Shown here: positions 7,232 to 21,184 of the stretch, piece after piece
Numbering within the stretch: position 1 is the first letter of the stretch
How the letters are laid out: each line of letters starts with the position of its first letter
DNA from: Deltaproteobacteria bacterium
Lineage (GTDB): Bacteria > Myxococcota_A > Polyangia > GCA-2747355
Assembly (NCBI GenBank): GCA_019314525.1
Contig: JAFCZD010000013.1
Span: 1 to 32,059 of the forward strand
Direction of reading: 5' to 3'
DNA: 32,059 nucleotides
Position numbers and translations under genes: made by a program
Notes under the pieces: model-generated
What the model was told of the DNA's origin: nothing
Database searches by the model: none
Seen by the model: only the letters and a program-made list of their open reading frames with translations

Positions 7232-7257
7232 AATGGTTCAACCCAAGGAGTTTGACC

Positions 7258-9174
7258 ATGCGATCTGCGCGTCTGCTGATCACGCCCACTCTAGGAGCGG
7301 CCCTATTCTTTTCATTGGTAAGCGAGGTCCGTGCCGAACGCGTCGGGGTCGTCACCAACGACGGTCGCGGGGGTGGCTATCGGCGGGGGGGCACCTACAA
7401 GGCGGTGAAATACGACAAATTTTCTGCCAAGGACACCGTGGGCTACCAGGTGCTCTCGGGGACGTTCAAGTATTGGACGATCCACGCGCGCTACAATGGT
7501 GGCTTCTGGAAGACCGTCTACAAGGGGCCCCAGAACAACCTCTCCATGAAGTTGATTCGACACCGAGTGAACAAGCTCGGCCGCGGGCGGCCCACGCACC
7601 TCAACTTCAGCGTCAACGGTGCCCACGAGCGTTATGAGCCCATCGCGTGCCGCCTGGCGATCCGGCGCCTGCCGCGCCAAGCGCCTCCTCCCGCTCAGAG
7701 CCCTGGGCAAATCGCTGTCGTCACCAATGATGGCCGAGGAGGAGGCTACCGTCGCGGCGGCACCTACGCTGCCGTGAAATACAACAAATTCGGCGTGAAC
7801 GACCGTGTGGGCTACCGCGTGCTCTCAGGGACGTTCAAATATTGGACGATCCACGCGCGCTACAAGGGCGGCTTCTGGAAGACAGTCTATAAGGGGCCCA
7901 AGAACCTCGTCCCCATGGCGCAAATTCGGCAGCGCGTCGCGAAGCTTGGCCAAGGGCGACCGACGCACCTCAACTTCAGCGTCAATGGCGCGCACGAGCG
8001 CTATGAGCGTATCGCTTGCCGCTTGGCGATCATTCAGCGTCTTGGCTCGGCGCCACCACGCCCCCCGGTGGCCCGAGGAGATACGATTCAGGTCGTTGCC
8101 GGGACGTACGGCAAGAATTGCGGAACCCACCGCGGCAACAAAACCGCGCACCTGCGTCAGGCTTGTCAGGGGCGCCGCTCATGCGTTTACACCATCGACC
8201 ACCGGGTGATCGGCGATCCGCGCCGTGGCTGCGGCAAAAACTACATCGCCGAGTGGCGTTGTGGCAGCAAGCGCCAGGTGCGGCGCGCAGTGGTTGCACC
8301 CGAGGCGGGCTTCCGCAAGCAGGTCACGCTCTCCTGTGGCGCCCAAGGTGGCCACGTAACGGGCCAGGGTACCGGACACGGTCATGGGACCGGTTATGCG
8401 GGCCACGGCGTAATCCGAGTCGTCTCTGGCACCTATGGCCAAAACTGTGGCGCTCGCCACGGCAACAAGACGAGGCATCTGCGTAAGGCGTGTCAGGGGC
8501 AGCGCTCCTGCTCTTACACCATCGATTATCGGGTCATCGGCGATCCGCGCCGTGGCTGCGGCAAGAATTACGTCGCCGAGTGGCGTTGCAGTGGCACCAC
8601 GAACCTACGACGCGCCGTGGTGGCGCCCGAGGCGGGCTTTCGCAAGCGAGTGGTGCTCACCTGTGGTCGTGGATTTGGGCGCCCCCATGTTCCGCCTCCG
8701 CCTGTGGCCCGTCCTGCTCAAGCCTTTCGGCTCTTTCGGGCGGTGGCCAAGCAGAGCTCCAGCAACTTCAAGCACAACCGCTATCGCAGGTTGCGCGTTG
8801 CCACGAATCAATTTGATCGCGTGCCCTACCATATGGCTTCAGCGGCCACGCGCACGCTTACCGTCCAGCCTGGGCAGCGTTGTTTTCTCGCGGGCAACAA
8901 GGCGGGCACGGCGGGTTTTGGCGTCGATAATTTCCTCTACATAAAGATCGGTCGGCGAGGCAAGGGGGCTCGTTTTGTTGTGGGCGCGGCGGACCCGGTG
9001 ACCCATCGTGGGCGGCCTGTGGCGCGCCTCGGGGGCAATAAGTTCAAGTTCCGCGCTGGGGAGATCGACCTCACCTCGCATATTCCCAAGGGTGTGCCCA
9101 CGCGCATCAAGGTCTTGGCGCTCGACTACGGCGCCGTGGGTTATGTTAGTGATGTGTTCTTGATCGTTCGCTAG
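7258..9174 (+). CDS. Secreted protein with two duplicated domain pairs, lectin-like
   Basis: ATG 7258 has AAGGAG 7 bases upstream. Residues 1-26 (MRSARLLITPTLGAALFFSL then VSEVRA) form a signal peptide with an AxA-like VRA cleavage site, so the protein is exported. Residues ~30-135 and ~152-258 are near-identical copies of an aromatic and glycine-rich domain (VVTNDGRGGGYRRGGTY, FKYWTIHARY, GGFWKTVYKGP, PTHLNFSVNGAHERYE) that I cannot name. Residues ~275-360 and ~384-469 are copies of a four- to five-cysteine domain (GTYGKNCG, HLRQACQGRRSCVYTI, GDPRRGCGKNY, EWRC) resembling SUEL/rhamnose-binding lectin domains. Residues ~489-638 form another probable beta-sandwich. Binding of extracellular or self glycans is an inference from the lectin-like pair. 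The gene stands alone between ihfA and a convergent sugar gene. Confidence 0.72.
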   Translation: MRSARLLITPTLGAALFFSLVSEVRAERVGVVTNDGRGGGYRRGGTYKAVKYDKFSAKDTVGYQVLSGTFKYWTIHARYNGGFWKTVYKGPQNNLSMKLIRHRVNKLGRGRPTHLNFSVNGAHERYEPIACRLAIRRLPRQAPPPAQSPGQIAVVTNDGRGGGYRRGGTYAAVKYNKFGVNDRVGYRVLSGTFKYWTIHARYKGGFWKTVYKGPKNLVPMAQIRQRVAKLGQGRPTHLNFSVNGAHERYERIACRLAIIQRLGSAPPRPPVARGDTIQVVAGTYGKNCGTHRGNKTAHLRQACQGRRSCVYTIDHRVIGDPRRGCGKNYIAEWRCGSKRQVRRAVVAPEAGFRKQVTLSCGAQGGHVTGQGTGHGHGTGYAGHGVIRVVSGTYGQNCGARHGNKTRHLRKACQGQRSCSYTIDYRVIGDPRRGCGKNYVAEWRCSGTTNLRRAVVAPEAGFRKRVVLTCGRGFGRPHVPPPPVARPAQAFRLFRAVAKQSSSNFKHNRYRRLRVATNQFDRVPYHMASAATRTLTVQPGQRCFLAGNKAGTAGFGVDNFLYIKIGRRGKGARFVVGAADPVTHRGRPVARLGGNKFKFRAGEIDLTSHIPKGVPTRIKVLALDYGAVGYVSDVFLIVR

Positions 9175-9185
9175 ACCGCTCCCAT

Positions 9186-9236
9186 CTAGGACTGATCTTG
9201 CGCGATAGCTGCGTCGCTCGCTGCGGTGCCTGCTCA
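9186..9236 (+). repeat. 51-bp dispersed element, copy 1
   Basis: This 51-bp stretch recurs in reverse complement at 19789-19839 with 46 of 51 identical bases; the differences are at unit positions 5, 6, 25, 30 and 43. It fills half of the 100-base gap between the convergent genes ending at 9174 and 9275, starting 12 bases after the first stop. The core CTTGCGCGATAGC and the block GCTCGCTGCGG are unchanged. I found no strong continuous hairpin and no T-run. Confidence 0.9.
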
Positions 9237-9274
9237 GGTGAAATAGCCAGCGCAAGGGAAGGCATGGCGCGCAT

Positions 9275-10867
9275 TCAGAGCGTCCTGTAGCGAGCGTCGA
9301 TCGCAGCCTCGATCGCGTCCGGTGTTACTTCGCGTTGACGCATCTGTGCAAACTTCTCCGCGAAGGAGAGGCGGTTGGGTGCGTGTGCCTCCTCATAAGC
9401 CTCTGGCGTGCCAGGGTCTTTTCGGCTGTCCCAGATGAGGTGCTCGAGGCCTTGCTCGAGGTCCGTGGGGTCCACCGGGAGGGTGGTGAGCACATGCTCG
9501 GCAGCTACCTTGATGGCGTCTCCCACGGCGCGAAAGGCGAAGGCGCCCTGGTCGAGGGCGAGGTCGTGGCAGGTGCACTCGAAGGCGACGGCGCGCGTCG
9601 CCTGCACACCCTGCAGTCGTGAGTCCACGATCACGGATCCTTCGATTTGGGCGGTGCCTTCAATGACGCTCTCGATGATCAACGAATCGCGCACGGAGCC
9701 ATCCATGGGCACGCGGCACTCTCCGATGACCAGGTTGCCCTGGGGATCGCGTGTGCTCTCGGCCACGGCGGCGAGCTGGCGTGCGAAGCTGCCCTCGGGC
9801 CCAACGTCCAGCAGCTGCAAGTAACCGTCGCGAGCTTTGGCGAGCTGGCCGATGTCTCCCCAATAGAGGCCAGCGCCGAAATCGATGACCTTGATGGAGA
9901 GCGCGCGGCCGCGTCGTTGTTCGAGGCGCGCCTTCAGCTCTCGCACCTTCTCATAAAAATCGGGGCGCTCGTCGAGGAGCTTGCGTAGCCCTGGGTCACG
10001 GGCAGCTTCGGCCTGCCAGGCGTCCTCTTCGTGCGTCAACGCTTCGAAGAGATAGCCGTCGACGTCGAGCCAGCCCTTCATCTCGCCGAAGGTGCGCTGA
10101 GCTTCCTCGAGGAATACGTAGGAGAGCGCGGGGCTGCCGATGTGCACCAGGGCTTTGGCCTTGGGGGTGTCGGCCAGCTCAAAGCGCGAGAGCAGCTCAG
10201 AACGTGAGCGGCGACGCACCTGGAGCTTGAGCTCAGCGCTCTCGGCGTCGCGCAGCAGCCACTCCTTGTTGCGCGCCAAGTCCTCGGTGATCGTGATCTC
10301 GCAGCCAAAGCGCAGGGCGTCGGTGTGGGAGAGGTCGAGACCAAGGGCGCCAAGGTCCAGGGCGGGGATTTGCGGCTCGTCGCCCCATTTCCAGGCTACG
10401 CCCGAAAAGCCCATGCTCTCGAGGTGGTGGGCCACCAGGGCCCAGGAAAAGAGTGAGGCGCTCGCGCCGCTGAGCCAAGGGCTCGCCGCTTGGCGCCGGA
10501 TCAGCATGGGCAAGAAGGGTTTGATGCCGTGCAAGCGCTGGGTGAGCGGGCTGAGGCGCGTGCCTTTGCCCGGCAGCATGATGCCCAGGGCCACGCCTTC
10601 GGGTTTGAAGCCTTGAGCTTGCACAGCTTGTTGCGCGTCGAGCAGGCCGAGGAGCTGACCGCGCCGGGTGCGCTCCTCGTGGGCGAAGACGTGCGTGGAA
10701 CCATCGGCGCGAAAGATCTCCTGGGCTACGCCCTGCAGGCGCTCGGCGACGATGGGGCCGTCACCACCGTTCGTGATGGCGATGACCTGGCGTGGGCCTT
10801 GTGAGGCGCTGATGAGCTCTCGCAACGCTTCGAGGTTGGCGAGGCGGAGATCGTCTTTGCGGGTCAT
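9275..10867 (-). CDS. Sugar nucleotidyltransferase with left-handed beta-helix tail
   Basis: The 530-residue protein has an NTP-transferase signature at ~residues 94-122 (GIMLPGKGTRLSPLTQ, then HGIKPFLPM), the GxGTRxxPxT loop and lysine of enzymes that charge sugar-1-phosphates with a nucleotide. A C-terminal segment near residues 400-430 (GSVRDSLIIESVIEGTAQIE) has the hexapeptide periodicity of a left-handed beta-helix. It is longer than the usual 300-450 residues and starts with a ~90-residue extension of unknown role. ATG overlaps the TGA of the upstream phosphohexomutase by 4 bases, with GAGGAG 9 bases ahead, so the two genes are translationally coupled. The mutase would supply its sugar-1-phosphate substrate; which sugar is not evident. 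Confidence 0.78.
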   Translation of the reverse strand: MTRKDDLRLANLEALRELISASQGPRQVIAITNGGDGPIVAERLQGVAQEIFRADGSTHVFAHEERTRRGQLLGLLDAQQAVQAQGFKPEGVALGIMLPGKGTRLSPLTQRLHGIKPFLPMLIRRQAASPWLSGASASLFSWALVAHHLESMGFSGVAWKWGDEPQIPALDLGALGLDLSHTDALRFGCEITITEDLARNKEWLLRDAESAELKLQVRRRSRSELLSRFELADTPKAKALVHIGSPALSYVFLEEAQRTFGEMKGWLDVDGYLFEALTHEEDAWQAEAARDPGLRKLLDERPDFYEKVRELKARLEQRRGRALSIKVIDFGAGLYWGDIGQLAKARDGYLQLLDVGPEGSFARQLAAVAESTRDPQGNLVIGECRVPMDGSVRDSLIIESVIEGTAQIEGSVIVDSRLQGVQATRAVAFECTCHDLALDQGAFAFRAVGDAIKVAAEHVLTTLPVDPTDLEQGLEHLIWDSRKDPGTPEAYEEAHAPNRLSFAEKFAQMRQREVTPDAIEAAIDARYRTL

Positions 10868-14995: not shown

Positions 14996-15018
14996 GGGGG
15001 GCCTCGCTTGGGCCCCCC
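14996..15018 (+). other. GC-rich leader hairpin
   Basis: GGGGGGCC (14996-15003) pairs perfectly with GGCCCCCC (15011-15018) around a 7-base loop. It ends 14 bases before the Shine-Dalgarno AAGGAG (15033-15038) of the TPR gene. With no T-run after it, a leader structure affecting translation or message stability is more likely than a terminator. Confidence 0.6.
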
Positions 15019-15043
15019 CACAGTGGTTGTCCAAGGAGACCGC

Positions 15044-18000
15044 GTGAGCCGTCTCGAGAGGCCAGGTCAAAGCTCGTGTAGCAACGCTGACACACCGGAC
15101 TTCGTCCAGCGTGGCAAGGTCTTGGTTGTCCAGCGCCAGTTTCGCGAGGCCGTCCGAGTGTGCCGCATCGGTCTGTTGGGTGAGCCTACCTGCGTTGAGG
15201 GGCGCTTGGTGCTTGGTATGGCGCTGATGGCCTTGGGGCGCTTCGAAGAAGTCCTCACGGAGATGCAAGCTGCCCTCGAGCTCGACAAGCATAACAGCAT
15301 GACCTATTTGCTGTGTGGAGAGGCGATGTTGCGCCGTGGCCAGAATGAACTCGCCCAGTCGACTCTCTTGAAAGCGCGCGAACTCGATCCACGGAACGAG
15401 AAGATCCTGCGACTCCTCGGCGAGGCAGAAGCTCGGATCTCTCTGAGTGAATTGTCCTCCTCGGACGAGAGTCTCAAGCCAGGTGAGCTGGATATTGGAG
15501 AATATGAGGTGTCTCTGCCGCTGATTCAAGCCGAGGAAGAGGATGATGAACGATATACGACGGCATCATGGCTTCCGCCCAAGCGTTCCCGGACGATGGC
15601 AGAGCGGTTTGATGACGGGGATACAGAGGTTGACGACGGACGGCGCAGCGTCCCCTCGGGCATCGTCCCACTGACCTGCGAGCAGGTCACGGGCGAGAGA
15701 ATTTCTCCAGAGGCAGAGGCGCTGCACGGGCCCAAGGCGACCAGCGAACTCACTGTCACCGCGACGGGCACCGACCTCTTGGATTTGACCCCTGCCGCCG
15801 GCTATGAGCCGGGGGGCGGATTCGGCGCCGAGCCCACGATCCCCGATTCGGGCTCTGTGACGGAGTTGGAAAGAGAGATGCCAGCACCGGAGATGCCAGC
15901 ACCGGAGATGCCAGCACCGGAGATGTCAGCACCGGAGATGCCAGCACCGGAGATGCCAGCACCGGAGATGCCAGCACCGGAGTTGCCAGCACTGGAGATG
16001 CCAGCACCGGAGATGCCAGCACCGGAGTTGCCAGCACTGGAGATGCCAGCACGGGAGTTGGTGGAGGAGTTGGTGGAAGAGTTGGTGGAGCGGCTACCCA
16101 ATGAGCCCACCGCCGAGGTGGTTTCGGGGGTGGCCCTTTGGCCGGCGGACCTGGATGAGAACCTGGATGAGAACCTGGCAGCAGCGGAGCCGCCCAGTGG
16201 TGAGATCACCAGCGAGTCGGGAGTGTTCGATGGGCGCGCCGCCCCATTTCGCGTTGACGGGACGGCTGAACTCTCAGATGCACCTAGCTGGCAGCGTCAA
16301 GATGGAGACCTTGGCCCAAATACGCCTGGTCCAGTGGACCTTTCTTTGCCCACCGCGCGGCTCCCCGATGATTTCCCCGACGCCTCCATCGTCTCTTCGC
16401 CTTTTGATCAGGTGCCCGACGCACCACGCATGCACCGCGCAGACGATCCAAGCGATCTGACCTACGACCTGCCACTTTCAGCGCTGGAGTTGCTCCCCGA
16501 AGACGAACTCAGTCGCGAGCACGCCCTTGATGAGGTTCTGAGTCCGCTCGATGAGCAGGAGCCTGCAGAGGTGAGCGAAGCCCTTCACGAGCCGCAGGGT
16601 GTGGATGAGGCGCCTCTCTACCTCGCCGAGCCTGCACCCATGGTCGATGAAGAGCTTCATGACGAGGACATCGGCTTTGAGGCCCCGGATGGAGGTGAGT
16701 TGCCCTTTGAGGGCGAGGATGCGGGGGCGCTCGTGGACGATGAAATCGAGGACCCGACGCCGGCGGGAGGCTCCCTTGAGCCGATCTCTGCCCCACTTCA
16801 TTTGGATGAGGAGCTTCCTGGCCTCGAGGACACCTCTGCGCCCAGGCGGCTGGACGAGGTGACCCCTCACTCGATTCCAAATGCGCCCTTGGATGCACCC
16901 CTTCACCTTGATGAGAGTGGCCCAGGTGCACCCGTCCCTTCTGCACCCGTCCCTTCTGCGGCACAAGATGAGCTTGGTGCGCCACAGGAGACTCATCTCC
17001 CTGGGAGTGCTCCAAGCCAATGGGGCTGGAACTCGGAGGAAGGGTCGTTTCCTCCCTCCATCGCTGTTCCATCGGCGCTCGATTCCGCGGAGATCGGCCT
17101 GGAGCCTCCCTCGGAGTCTCCCGAGAGTCATCCGCGGCGAACGGCCGCCATGCAAGACGACGGGCGCTTCATCCCTTTCATTGATGATGCGGCGGAGGGT
17201 ACCGGGGAGACGAAGGCCGGTGGGCGTCGGGATCGCAGTCAGGCGGGGCGCTACGGACATCGCAGTGACCCTGGCCGCTCTGGGCATCGTAGCAAGGTTG
17301 AGACCGGGGGGCGTGGGCACCGTAAAGAGGTTGGGCGCTCTGGAGCGCAGCCCTTCGACGACGGCTCCCTCGATGACTCGTTTCTGGATGAGGCTCGGCA
17401 ACGGCGGCGCCGCGCGCCCGTAGCGGCTGAGCGCACGACCTGGGTAACATTGGTCTTGGGTGAGTCGGGGCAGCAGCGCTGGGTACGAGGCGTGGCCGCT
17501 GCGTGCATCGTGCTGCTTGCCTTGGGAGGCGGCTTCCTCTTTCGCTCCTTGCGTATTGGGCATCAGGTAGAGCGCAAGCTGAAAGAAGGGCGTGCCTTGC
17601 TCAACCGTGGCAATTTGCGCGACTTTCAGCAGGCAGCCCAGCGCTTCGCCGACGTTGTTCGTGGCCGGAAAGAAGATGGCACAGCGAAGCTGAGGGTGGC
17701 GCGTGTGAACGCTGCGATCCCCTTCGAGTTTGGTGACGCCAACCCTGCGGCCTCGCGTGATGCGCCCAAGGGCAGCGAGGGTGGCGCGGTGCGGGCGGCC
17801 CTGTCGATCTATCAGCTCCTGGCTGAAGGCAAGCTCCGAGCTGCCGCTCGGAGTGCGTTCGATGCACGAGAACAGCACAAAAAGAGCGCCAGAATTCACT
17901 ACCTCTCAGGGCGGGTCTTTCTGCTCGAGGGGCGCACTGAGTCTGCGTCTCGCGATTTGGCCCGGGCTGTAGAACTCAACCCGCGTGATTGCCAGGCCAT

Positions 18001-19783
18001 GGCCTGGGTGGGCATGGTCCAACTCGAAATGGGTCATCCAGAGGAGGCCTCCAAGTGGTTCGAGAAGACATTGCGGCACAACCCAGATCATGTGACCAGC
18101 CATCTCGGACGCGCGAGGGTGTTGCTCTCCCAGCGTCATCTGGCCGAGGCTGACGTATTACTCAGCGAGATTTCCAGCGGGAAATACCGGAGCCACGCTT
18201 CCCGTGGACAGCGGGGCTGGGCACTGGCGTTGAGGGCCAAGGTCAAGGCTCAGGAGAAGAAGATCCGACCCGCGCGGGCGTTTGTCGAGAAGGCGAGGGG
18301 CAGCGCGCCCACCAGCGATCCTGCGTTCTATGATCTGTTGGCTGATGTGCTGATCGACCTTTTTCAGCTGGGATCCGCAGAGAGGATGGCCAAGCGGTCG
18401 GAGAAGGTTATGGGGGACCGGCCCCACCCACGTATCGCCCAGGCCCGCATCTTTTTGCTCCAGGGGCGTGCCAAGGCTGCCTGGCGGGCCAGCAGAGCGT
18501 TGGACTCCGAGGCGTCAGCGCTGCTCAAAGCACGAATTCAGCTCGAGTTAGGCAACATCTCTGATGCCCGTCGGTCCATCGAGGGGGTGCTCAAACGCAC
18601 CAAGAGCGTGGAAGCTGAGCTGACGATGGCTCGTGTGCTGGCCGCCGAAGGGAGGCTCGAAGAAGCGCAGAGCGGGCTAAAGGCGCTCTCAAGCGCTCAC
18701 CCCAAAGATGGCCGTGTGTTGACGGCACTTGGAGCGCTCTTCCTGCGACAGAGGCGCTACGACGAGGCCAAGGACCACTTCACCCGTGCTTCCAGGTATG
18801 ACCGCACGGCGCTGGGGGCCAAGCTCGGCTTGGCAGATGTCTTGTTGGCTCGTGGCGAGTTCCAGAGGGCTCACGAAACGTTGAACGAGGAGCATCGTAC
18901 CCATCCATGGTTCGTGCCCATCAACAAGAAGCTGGCATGGCTCGATATCGGCAGCATGAACCTTTCAGAGGCGAAATCTAATCTGCAGCGCGTGCTCAAG
19001 GCCGTGTCCGGAGATATGGAGGCGCAGCTGATGTTGGTGGAGGTGTTGACGCTTCAACGCGACTTCGGGGCGGCCAGCCGCGAGTTGGAGCAGGCACGAG
19101 GCGGGGCGGCGCCTGCCGTAGCGCTCGCCGAGGGGCGCTTGGCCTTGGCCCAGGAGGAGGCGAGGCTAGCCATCAGCAAGCTCGAGGTCGCCTGCCAAAC
19201 AGGAAAAAATCCTGCTTCGTTGGTTCTCTTGGCGCGTGCGTATGGCTTCGAGACCAAAGGCAAAGTTGCCTCGCTCTCTCGTTATCGGGCCACCTTTGGA
19301 AAACTGCCCGAGTGGAGTCAGGCCCGGGGAGTGCTGGCGTTGGCCCAAGGGCGGCCCCGCCGCGCAGCCTCTGAGTTCTCCAAGGCGGTCTCACTGCTGC
19401 GCAGCAACCCACGTTCACCACGAGATGTGGCTCACCTTCATATTAACTGGGCGCAGGCGCTCCAAGAGGATGGTCGCCCTGAGGAGGCTCTCAAGAAGTT
19501 GAAGGAAGCCCGACGAATATGTCGAGGATGTTACCTGGGTTATTACCGGGAGGGGCTGGTTCGTGACGAGCTAGAGCAGCCCGCCGCGGCCATCAGCGCC
19601 CTGGGCAAGGCTGTGGAGTTGGCCCCACGATTTCGTGATAGCTACTACTGGCTGGGCAAGATCCACGCTGATCGCGGCAAGACCAAGGACGCGCAGGACG
19701 CTTACGCAAAATACCTGAAGCTCAACCCCCCAAGCGCTGAAGCGGAAGAGGTGCGGGAAGCGCTGCGAGACCTTCGGCGCTGA
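15044..19783 (+). CDS. Giant TPR protein with central transmembrane helix
   Basis: GTG 15044 is the start because AAGGAG lies 5 bases upstream; the open frame extends to 15008 without a ribosome site. The product has 1,579 residues. Residues ~17-132 hold about three TPR units (AVRVCRIGLLGEPTCVEGRL and following). Residues ~135-800 are acidic, Pro-rich and low in complexity, including twelve EMPAP-type pentapeptides (278-337). A basic Gly/Arg/His stretch comes near 730-770. A single membrane helix follows at ~814-838 (VAAACIVLLALGGGFLF). From ~860 to the end runs a long array of TPRs (YLSGRVFLLEGRTESASRDL and many more). The two TPR regions would lie on opposite sides of the inner membrane. 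TPRs scaffold protein complexes; the partner is unknown. It has its own promoter and ends in a convergent gap. Confidence 0.85.
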   Translation: MSRLERPGQSSCSNADTPDFVQRGKVLVVQRQFREAVRVCRIGLLGEPTCVEGRLVLGMALMALGRFEEVLTEMQAALELDKHNSMTYLLCGEAMLRRGQNELAQSTLLKARELDPRNEKILRLLGEAEARISLSELSSSDESLKPGELDIGEYEVSLPLIQAEEEDDERYTTASWLPPKRSRTMAERFDDGDTEVDDGRRSVPSGIVPLTCEQVTGERISPEAEALHGPKATSELTVTATGTDLLDLTPAAGYEPGGGFGAEPTIPDSGSVTELEREMPAPEMPAPEMPAPEMSAPEMPAPEMPAPEMPAPELPALEMPAPEMPAPELPALEMPARELVEELVEELVERLPNEPTAEVVSGVALWPADLDENLDENLAAAEPPSGEITSESGVFDGRAAPFRVDGTAELSDAPSWQRQDGDLGPNTPGPVDLSLPTARLPDDFPDASIVSSPFDQVPDAPRMHRADDPSDLTYDLPLSALELLPEDELSREHALDEVLSPLDEQEPAEVSEALHEPQGVDEAPLYLAEPAPMVDEELHDEDIGFEAPDGGELPFEGEDAGALVDDEIEDPTPAGGSLEPISAPLHLDEELPGLEDTSAPRRLDEVTPHSIPNAPLDAPLHLDESGPGAPVPSAPVPSAAQDELGAPQETHLPGSAPSQWGWNSEEGSFPPSIAVPSALDSAEIGLEPPSESPESHPRRTAAMQDDGRFIPFIDDAAEGTGETKAGGRRDRSQAGRYGHRSDPGRSGHRSKVETGGRGHRKEVGRSGAQPFDDGSLDDSFLDEARQRRRRAPVAAERTTWVTLVLGESGQQRWVRGVAAACIVLLALGGGFLFRSLRIGHQVERKLKEGRALLNRGNLRDFQQAAQRFADVVRGRKEDGTAKLRVARVNAAIPFEFGDANPAASRDAPKGSEGGAVRAALSIYQLLAEGKLRAAARSAFDAREQHKKSARIHYLSGRVFLLEGRTESASRDLARAVELNPRDCQAMAWVGMVQLEMGHPEEASKWFEKTLRHNPDHVTSHLGRARVLLSQRHLAEADVLLSEISSGKYRSHASRGQRGWALALRAKVKAQEKKIRPARAFVEKARGSAPTSDPAFYDLLADVLIDLFQLGSAERMAKRSEKVMGDRPHPRIAQARIFLLQGRAKAAWRASRALDSEASALLKARIQLELGNISDARRSIEGVLKRTKSVEAELTMARVLAAEGRLEEAQSGLKALSSAHPKDGRVLTALGALFLRQRRYDEAKDHFTRASRYDRTALGAKLGLADVLLARGEFQRAHETLNEEHRTHPWFVPINKKLAWLDIGSMNLSEAKSNLQRVLKAVSGDMEAQLMLVEVLTLQRDFGAASRELEQARGGAAPAVALAEGRLALAQEEARLAISKLEVACQTGKNPASLVLLARAYGFETKGKVASLSRYRATFGKLPEWSQARGVLALAQGRPRRAASEFSKAVSLLRSNPRSPRDVAHLHINWAQALQEDGRPEEALKKLKEARRICRGCYLGYYREGLVRDELEQPAAAISALGKAVELAPRFRDSYYWLGKIHADRGKTKDAQDAYAKYLKLNPPSAEAEEVREALRDLRR
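15875..16054 (+). repeat. Twelve 15-bp in-frame repeats (EMPAP)
   Basis: Twelve consecutive 15-bp units based on GAGATGCCAGCACCG encode EMPAP, with variants EMSAP (unit 4), ELPAL (units 8 and 11) and EMPAR (unit 12). Several units are identical at the DNA level, which points to recent expansion. The shared ELPAL-EMPAP order in units 8-9 and 11-12 suggests block duplication. Confidence 0.95.
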
Positions 19784-19788
19784 GGTAG

Positions 19789-19839
19789 TGAGCAGGTACC
19801 GCAGCGAGCAACGCCGCTATCGCGCAAGATCAGGTCTAG
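19789..19839 (-). repeat. 51-bp dispersed element, copy 2
   Basis: Reverse complement of the element at 9186-9236, 46/51 identical. It fills almost the whole gap between the stops of the TPR gene (19783) and glgC (19836), and its last four bases run into the glgC stop codon. The gap, like that of copy 1, lies between convergent genes. Confidence 0.9.
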
Positions 19840-21098
19840 CCGAATGAGTATTCCTTGGGGATGACAACGATGGCTTCGTCGCTGACGTGCAGGCCGCGGG
19901 CGCGGTCTTCGTCGAGGTCGTGCCCAATCTTCGTATTGGGTGGGATCGTGACATATTTGTCGACGATGGTGCGGCGAAGGCTGCAGTGGCGGCCCACCTC
20001 GACACCATCCATCAAGATCGAGTCTTTAACCTCTGAGAAGCTATTAATGCGCACCTTGGGGAAGAGTACGCTGCGCTGGATGTGACCACCGCTGATGATG
20101 CACCCTGGAGACACCAAGGAGTCCGTCGCGAACCCCATGCGGTCGCCTTCATCAGAGAAGACGAACTTTGCCGGGGGCATGGGTCGCAAGGTGGAGTGGA
20201 TCGGCCAGCGGTAGTTGTAGAGGTTGAGCACGGGCTTGACGGAGGTCAGGTCAAAATGAGCTTCGATGAAGGCCTCTAGGGTTCCAACATCTTTCCAATA
20301 GCCGCGTTCATCCTCGTTCATGCCCGGGACTTCATTGTCGAGGAAGTTGTAGACGTACACGGGCTGCTGGGGGAAGAGCATGGGCACGATGTCGCGTCCG
20401 AAATCATGCACCGAATCGTTGCTCTCTGCGTCCTCCTTGAGGGCCTTTCGAAGCACCTCAGGAGTGAAGATATAGTTGCCCATGGAGGCCAAACACCAAC
20501 CAGGTCGGCCAGGGATCTCCTTCGGGGTTGTTGGCTTCTCCTCGAATCCCACCATGCGCCAGTTCTCGTCGATTTCGATCACCCCAAAGGCTTGGGATTG
20601 CTCAGAGGGAACTGGGAGAGCTGCCACGGTCATGCCGGCCTTGCGCTGGATATGTGTGTTGAGCATCTGCCGCACGTCCATGCGGTAGATATGGTCCCCC
20701 CCGAAGACGCACACATAGTCAGGGTTCTCTTCAATGACGACGTTGTAGCTCTGATGTAACGCGTCTGCGGAGCCTCGGAACCACTGCTTGCCCAAGCGTT
20801 GTTGTGCGGGGACAGGCTCGACGTAGTGGTCTACCATCGAAGAGAGTCGCCAGCCGCGTGCGATATGGCTGAGCAGCGAGTCGCTCTTGTATTGCGTCAG
20901 GACCTTGATGCGATGGATCCCAGAGTTGACGAAATTGCTCAATACGAAGTCGATAATGCGAAAGCTGCCACCAAAAGGCACGGCGGGCTTGGCGCGGTCC
21001 GCTGTGAGAGGCCACAAGCGCGTTCCTTCACCTCCGGCGAGGACGACGGCGAGAATGCGTGGGCGCGGACCGAGTGCGAAAGATGAGTGCTGAGTCAT
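19836..21098 (-). CDS. glgC: Glucose-1-phosphate adenylyltransferase
   Basis: ATG 21098 was chosen because AAAGGGGGG lies about 6 bases upstream; the frame is open 17 codons further. The 420-residue protein has the ADP-glucose pyrophosphorylase loop [15 protein letters not shown] with [10 protein letters not shown], the GDHIYRMD metal site, the VGFEEKP substrate loop and [11 protein letters not shown]-terminal beta-helix follows ([19 protein letters not shown]). It makes ADP-glucose from glucose-1-phosphate and ATP, the committed step of bacterial glycogen synthesis, normally under allosteric control by glycolytic intermediates. No other glycogen genes are present; the upstream neighbour is a Ser/Thr kinase, with an 86-base gap. 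Length and motifs are typical. Confidence 0.96.
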
Positions 21099-21184
21099 CG
21101 TTTCCCCCCTTTCTTTGGCGACATGGCCACCTATTGCGTTAGAGCTCACCTATTGCGTTACAGCCCACTGGAGGCCGCATGGGC

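Follow-up and report, generated by a model that had tools for sequence, protein, structure and literature searches.

The window, that is, the whole stretch of 32,059 nucleotides that was analysed, contains two gaps between converging genes, each of which is occupied by a copy of the same sequence element. The genes and features at these two sites are the following.

7252..9174, plus strand: gene upstream of copy 1 and ending in it; 640 amino acids, with a weak match to the SUEL lectin domain below the Pfam cut-off
9171..9236, plus strand: left half of element copy 1, consisting of the tip CTAG (9171-9174), the left arm and the conserved apex core on one side only; cut off at 9236; 98% identity with the 150-nt consensus of the element over its positions 2-67; hairpin strand minus
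9172..9174, plus strand: stop codon TAG of the gene upstream of copy 1, formed by the tip TA and the first base of the element
9275..10867, minus strand: converging gene downstream of copy 1; 530 amino acids, without a Pfam match; its stop codon lies 38 nt past the element
15008..19783, plus strand: gene with TPR repeats that converges on glgC; the TGA stop codon (19781-19783) abuts copy 2
19785..19839, minus strand: left half of element copy 2, inverted with respect to copy 1; 93% identical to consensus positions 17-71; hairpin strand plus
19836..19838, minus strand: stop codon TAG of glgC, made by the element tip
19836..21149, minus strand: glgC, glucose-1-phosphate adenylyltransferase-like, with a complete C-terminal hexapeptide domain

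Positions 9186-9236 and the reverse complement of 19789-19839 are identical at 46 of 51 positions. The next-best match to the 51-mer inside the window comprises 28 positions and the best obtained from 100 shuffled windows 32, which confirms the match described in an earlier note on this DNA. The gene positions likewise agree with its statements that both copies sit between converging stop codons and that the second overlaps the stop codon of glgC. The extent of the copies differs from that first given: copy 1 starts at 9171 rather than at 9186, as the preceding CTAGACCGCTCCCAT is also element sequence, and copy 2 fills the entire gap from the stop codon of the TPR gene to that of glgC. The tip CTAG of copy 2 (19836-19839) is either the inner CTAG of the element, altered at two places, or its outer tip, in which case about 15 nt were deleted. 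The 51-mer represents only the left half of a palindrome of about 135-150 bp, and both window copies are truncated. Since the C-terminal domain of glgC is complete, the tip substitutes for a stop codon at the natural end of the gene, which has not been cut. Folding of the 71-nt window pieces alone revealed no structure beyond chance, as expected of truncated halves. The most likely view of the window copies is that they are relics, which do nothing by themselves except provide a stop codon.

The window contains further repeats that differ from the element. The gene upstream of copy 1 has two internal repeat sets (7343-8011 and 8092-8666) with units of about 300 nt and 170 nt that are 79-80% identical, consistent with a repeat-built surface protein. 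Within the TPR gene, positions 15875-16054 hold approximately 12 tandem copies of the 15-nt unit GAGATGCCAGCACCG, encoding the peptide EMPAP, possibly a coding repeat of variable length. A perfect 35-bp tandem duplication at 484-553 consists of two copies of AGTCCGGTTCCGCACCCCAGGGGCGGAACCGCAGA and contains a GC-rich inverted repeat.

In a search of the 7.57-Mb draft genome from which the window derives (G000, 84% complete) with the piece 9176-9246, the second copy was recovered with E = 2.8e-13 and about 20 places were found at E < 1e-7. The sequence is thus a dispersed repeat, as the earlier note had supposed in proposing a dispersed intergenic element, and not a two-copy coincidence; no clear intragenic copy was found in G000. 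Several of the aligned copies extend past the 51-bp block into the reverse complement of its first half (TCTAGACCGCTCCCATCTAGGACTGATCTTG ... CAAGCTCAACCCTAGCTGGAAGCGATCTAGA), and a complete copy is a near-perfect palindrome of about 135-150 bp with TA at each tip. The 150-nt consensus identified nine long copies and many halves in this genome, and R1, a covariance model of the family, ten full-length copies. Copies consisting of only the right arm (L048, L049) and copies lacking the middle (L021, L022) also occur, which fits deletion within the palindrome. Six loci with complete copies gave no match to Rfam 15 at E ≤ 1, and no matches to the element were found in viral contigs, phages or plasmids.

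Complete copies fold into a single long hairpin on the strand opposite to that of the 51-bp block. Its apex, GAGGAGC-S-NGCGGAGC followed by a stem-loop and GTGAGCA-S-GCACCGCAGC, is conserved across phyla; in G003, which belongs to another family of the same order, the core is the same and the arms differ but still pair. In an alignment of 35 sequences (A1) with 22 base pairs, 95.9% of the cells are paired. Changes on both sides of a pair occur in 124 cells, compared with 39.6 +/- 5.6 in shuffled alignments (reached in 0 of 500), and the covariation score is 0.416 compared with 0.129 (likewise 0 of 500). Sliding the partners against each other lowers pairing to 19-40%. The search pattern fixes many of the core letters and thereby accounts in part for the invariant columns of A1; it does not account for the covarying pairs, which fall at free positions of the pattern or outside it. 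Copies from one and the same genome illustrate this behavior as well: L106 carries GCAGTGATGC/GCATCACTGC where L067 and L072 carry GCATTGATGC/GCATCAATGC, and within G072 GAGGATG/CATCCTC alternates with GAGCGTG/CACGCTC. The arms of the approximately 145-bp element are free to change provided that pairing is maintained, whereas the apex is conserved.

A pattern scan of 84,980 genomes yielded 43 loci, nearly all in metagenome-assembled genomes of Myxococcota and Desulfobulbaceae (Desulfofustis), some of them labeled only as Proteobacteria. One locus, L073 from Microlunatus, appears to be a fortuitous match within a reading frame that codes for protein. Among 284 genomes of Myxococcota, nearly all of the genomes searched being drafts, model R1 found the element in 24, distributed over 22 genera and often in 14 or more copies, and most close relatives of the carriers lack it. 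The carriers in Desulfobacterota are Desulfofustis and other Desulfobulbaceae. Copies in G072 and G122 have a TAAGC..GTGC apex. G020 contains a variant family (L199-L210) with similar arms and a shortened, different apex, GGAGCGGCGCACAC..GTGTGAAACCGACGAGC; its 12 copies, 4 of which apparently lie inside called genes, are nearly identical, and the variant is a recent expansion.

The ends of the element were determined by comparing boundaries within genomes and by searching for TA pairs; automatic tip finding by simple arm extension was abandoned as it overshot into the flanking sequence. A sharp boundary was seen in G096, where most copies read (TA)AACCACGTCCAG..CTGGACGTGGTT(TA), similarity is lost outside and the flanks are unrelated; a few copies have a degraded tip. 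Other genomes have other tips, such as (TA)AACAGT.. in G296, TATACAT..ATGTATA in Desulfobulbaceae and (TA)GACCGC.. in G000. Overall, 43 copies have TA tips together with at least 9 of 14 complementary tip bases. In G122 the element L155 lies 13 nt past the apparent stop codon of groEL, and the congener G072 has no element there (L233). The orthologous spacers of G072 lack the element and hold other sequence that is too diverged to display a single TA. TA at both ends is what duplication of a TA would leave, but it could be part of the element instead, because these spacers yielded no empty site that has one TA. The patchy occurrence, the multiple copies and the absence from the orthologous spacers of the congener are the behavior of a mobile element. 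Two further observations concern other sequences. G072 (L223-L230) contains more than 30 near-identical copies of an apparently unrelated repeat of about 31 bp (region of ACCGCTTTCGATTTGACGCGATCTCTTCGTG), which is also present in the spacers of the congener of G072. Just past the element in L106, and at about 7530-7556 in L100, the adjoining sequence resembles the end of a tRNA gene (GATTTGAACCT and GACCGGGATCGAACCGGTG).

The position of the copies relative to genes was derived from lists of open reading frames and a simple codon-usage gene finder, the latter for genes outside annotated records. In G000, 16 of the 23 classifiable copies lie in convergent gaps, 7 in co-directional and none in divergent gaps, a bias that is significant against the gaps in other genomes (26 of 115 convergent, p = 2.5e-5) and against the remaining gaps of the window, of which 1 of 15 is convergent (p = 1.6e-4). 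The placement in convergent gaps emphasized in the earlier note thus holds for this genome but not as a rule of the family: in five other genomes 12 of 51 copies are convergent compared with 11 of 65 background gaps (p = 0.48), and a separate tally in other genomes, 10 of 30 copies, showed no significant preference either. A few copies in other genomes lie inside called genes. What extends beyond G000 is the association with gene ends, as 26 gene 3' ends but only 6 gene 5' ends were counted near tips in a set taken mostly from other genomes. A stop codon formed exactly by TA and the first element base occurs in both window copies, at both tips of L067, and in L193, L196, L186 and L007. In G000 the left tip faces the stop codon of a gene in almost all copies; an orientation rule for the whole family was rejected, as the wider set gave 15 versus 11.

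The 3'-end and convergent bias in G000, which is strong, and the deeply conserved apex with its covarying arms would suit a structured RNA or DNA adapted by the host to gene ends, in which the hairpin is under selection as a bidirectional 3'-end processing signal or as an insulator that separates convergent genes. This is unlikely. Many of the copies in the genome, including both in the window, are incomplete halves unable to form the hairpin, the element is patchy (24 of 284 genomes) and missing from the orthologous spacers of the congener, and the convergent bias is not seen in the five other genomes. Nor was an intrinsic terminator, a GC-rich stem followed by a T-run, found within either window copy, which speaks against the role in ending transcription that the earlier note had suggested. 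A TA-flanked mobile element that inserts harmlessly where TA and stop codons coincide accounts better for the placement.

The known repeat that most resembles the element is ERIC (also IRU or RU-1; MITEEc1, MITEPlu5). ERIC is an imperfect palindrome of about 127 bp that folds into one long hairpin, is transcribed together with neighboring genes and affects mRNA in an RNase E-dependent and orientation-dependent manner; it has been in use for strain typing for decades. Both elements are imperfect palindromes of roughly 125-150 bp that are intergenic and found at the 3' ends of genes. Both have TA at the tips, and the TATAC..GTATA of ERIC also occurs in the Desulfobulbaceae copies. Both form a long hairpin on one strand, with an apex of GGAGC, stem-loop and GTGA and, in several members, AAGGCG/AACGCAGC lower down. 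According to a 2024 review, ERIC is confined to Enterobacteriaceae and Vibrionaceae (PMC10969869). In Photorhabdus (MITEPlu5), it has duplicated TA, and strains show 47 differences in its presence or absence (PMC6267812); in Yersinia it alters mRNA stability depending on its orientation (PMC2229807).

Model R1 picked out E. coli ERIC at the right place, on the right strand and in register with 15.5-17.4 bits (E = 5.7e-4 to 3e-3 in 34.5 kb), and it also matched Rahnella ERIC; such R1-only matches of 15-17 bits are weak, and a model of any long hairpin favors other long hairpins. In the reverse direction, a model built from ten enterobacterial ERICs (R2) was applied to 246 kb of the new loci, and all five of its matches (E up to 10) fell on the elements and on the right strand. 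In Myxococcota genomes R2 identified L237 in G396 (54 bits, E = 1.8e-8) and four copies in G315. L237 is matched by R1 as well (29.8 bits, E = 5.7e-9). In a side-by-side alignment, with limits chosen by eye, the stretches AAGGCG, GGAGC/GTGA and AACGCAGC are common to several members and ERIC. The differences concern the phyla (Myxococcota and Desulfobacterota), the arms, which are unrelated in sequence, the stem below the apex, which is GC-S-NGC with an A-A mismatch here and CCCCAG/CTGGGG in ERIC, and the conserved CCC near the tip, which the new element lacks. These sequence comparisons make common descent of the two elements likely, although they do not prove it. The element is named ERIC-like, and not ERIC, because its carriers lie outside the known range of ERIC, range not being a structural criterion. 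No reports of such repeats in Myxococcota or Desulfobacterota were found in the open-access literature.

Tandem G-A pairs often occur next to a stem, and the likeness of the apex to that of ERIC might therefore be convergent. On this view the element would be a MITE that arose by reduction of a resident IS630/Tc1-mariner transposon, the transposase of which moves it, and would not descend from ERIC. The TA tips are like those of IS630, and a connection to IS630-type ends has been made for Photorhabdus ERIC (PMC6267812). IS630-linked MITEs such as RUP of Streptococcus pneumoniae are also small and non-autonomous with TA at their ends, and the ends of RUP match those of an IS630 element (PMC2229807). 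However, an IS630 partner was not found for the element described here, the ends of which vary freely. G072 and G122 are rich in copies yet contain no DDE_3 (PF13358) match, an absence that is provisional in draft genomes; the only DDE_3 gene of G000 has neither matching tips nor TA-flanked inverted repeats, and the PF13358 matches in the drafts G000 and G096 show no matching tips. Moreover, the conserved part is the apex and not the tip, and L237 is strongly matched by both R1 and R2. An origin from a resident IS630 transposon is accordingly quite improbable.

A REP-like element was the other kind considered in the earlier note. REP/REPIN sequences, which are moved by a RAYT transposase, are likewise palindromic, dispersed, intergenic and biased to gene 3' ends, but can be dismissed as highly improbable, as the element is several times longer (about 145 bp versus 20-40 bp), has TA tips instead of a GTAG or CGTC tag and resides in a draft genome (84% complete) without a RAYT (Y1_Tnp, PF01797) gene, whereas the control search was positive in five genomes.

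Both sites in the window thus probably hold truncated copies of an ERIC-type MITE, a palindromic mobile element that is non-autonomous. It differs from a typical MITE, which has a fixed transposase-binding end, in that its arms vary freely. The element would be moved in trans by an enzyme into TA sites. TA is depleted in this GC-rich genome (559 in the window compared with 1189 predicted by base composition, about half) and would be met with in stop codons. Insertions that use or adjoin a stop codon would be harmless because the tip TA and the first base, G or A, restore TAG or TAA, and since only harmless insertions would survive, copies at gene 3' ends would be kept. These could later shrink by deletion into half elements such as the two in the window. 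An effect on gene expression, if there is any, would be secondary: complete copies would place a hairpin of about 140 nt in 3' untranslated RNA, where it may affect processing as ERIC does.

A broader model, which we advance only tentatively, regards ERIC as a branch within an ancient superfamily that comprises palindromic mobile elements of Gammaproteobacteria, Myxococcota and Desulfobacterota, in which the apex and not the ends is recognized and a structure-reading enzyme moves the element in the form of a folded single strand, either of DNA or of RNA. If this is true, such movement lets the arms drift while they remain complementary. That a family related to ERIC occurs in two further phyla, its apex conserved and its arms drifting yet complementary, suggests that the function resides in the apex, and the carriers among Myxococcota and Desulfobacterota offer an independent set of genomes in which to seek the enzyme that mobilizes ERIC-type elements. 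Finally, TA tips that rebuild stop codons would provide a simple reason why such repeats crowd at the ends of genes.
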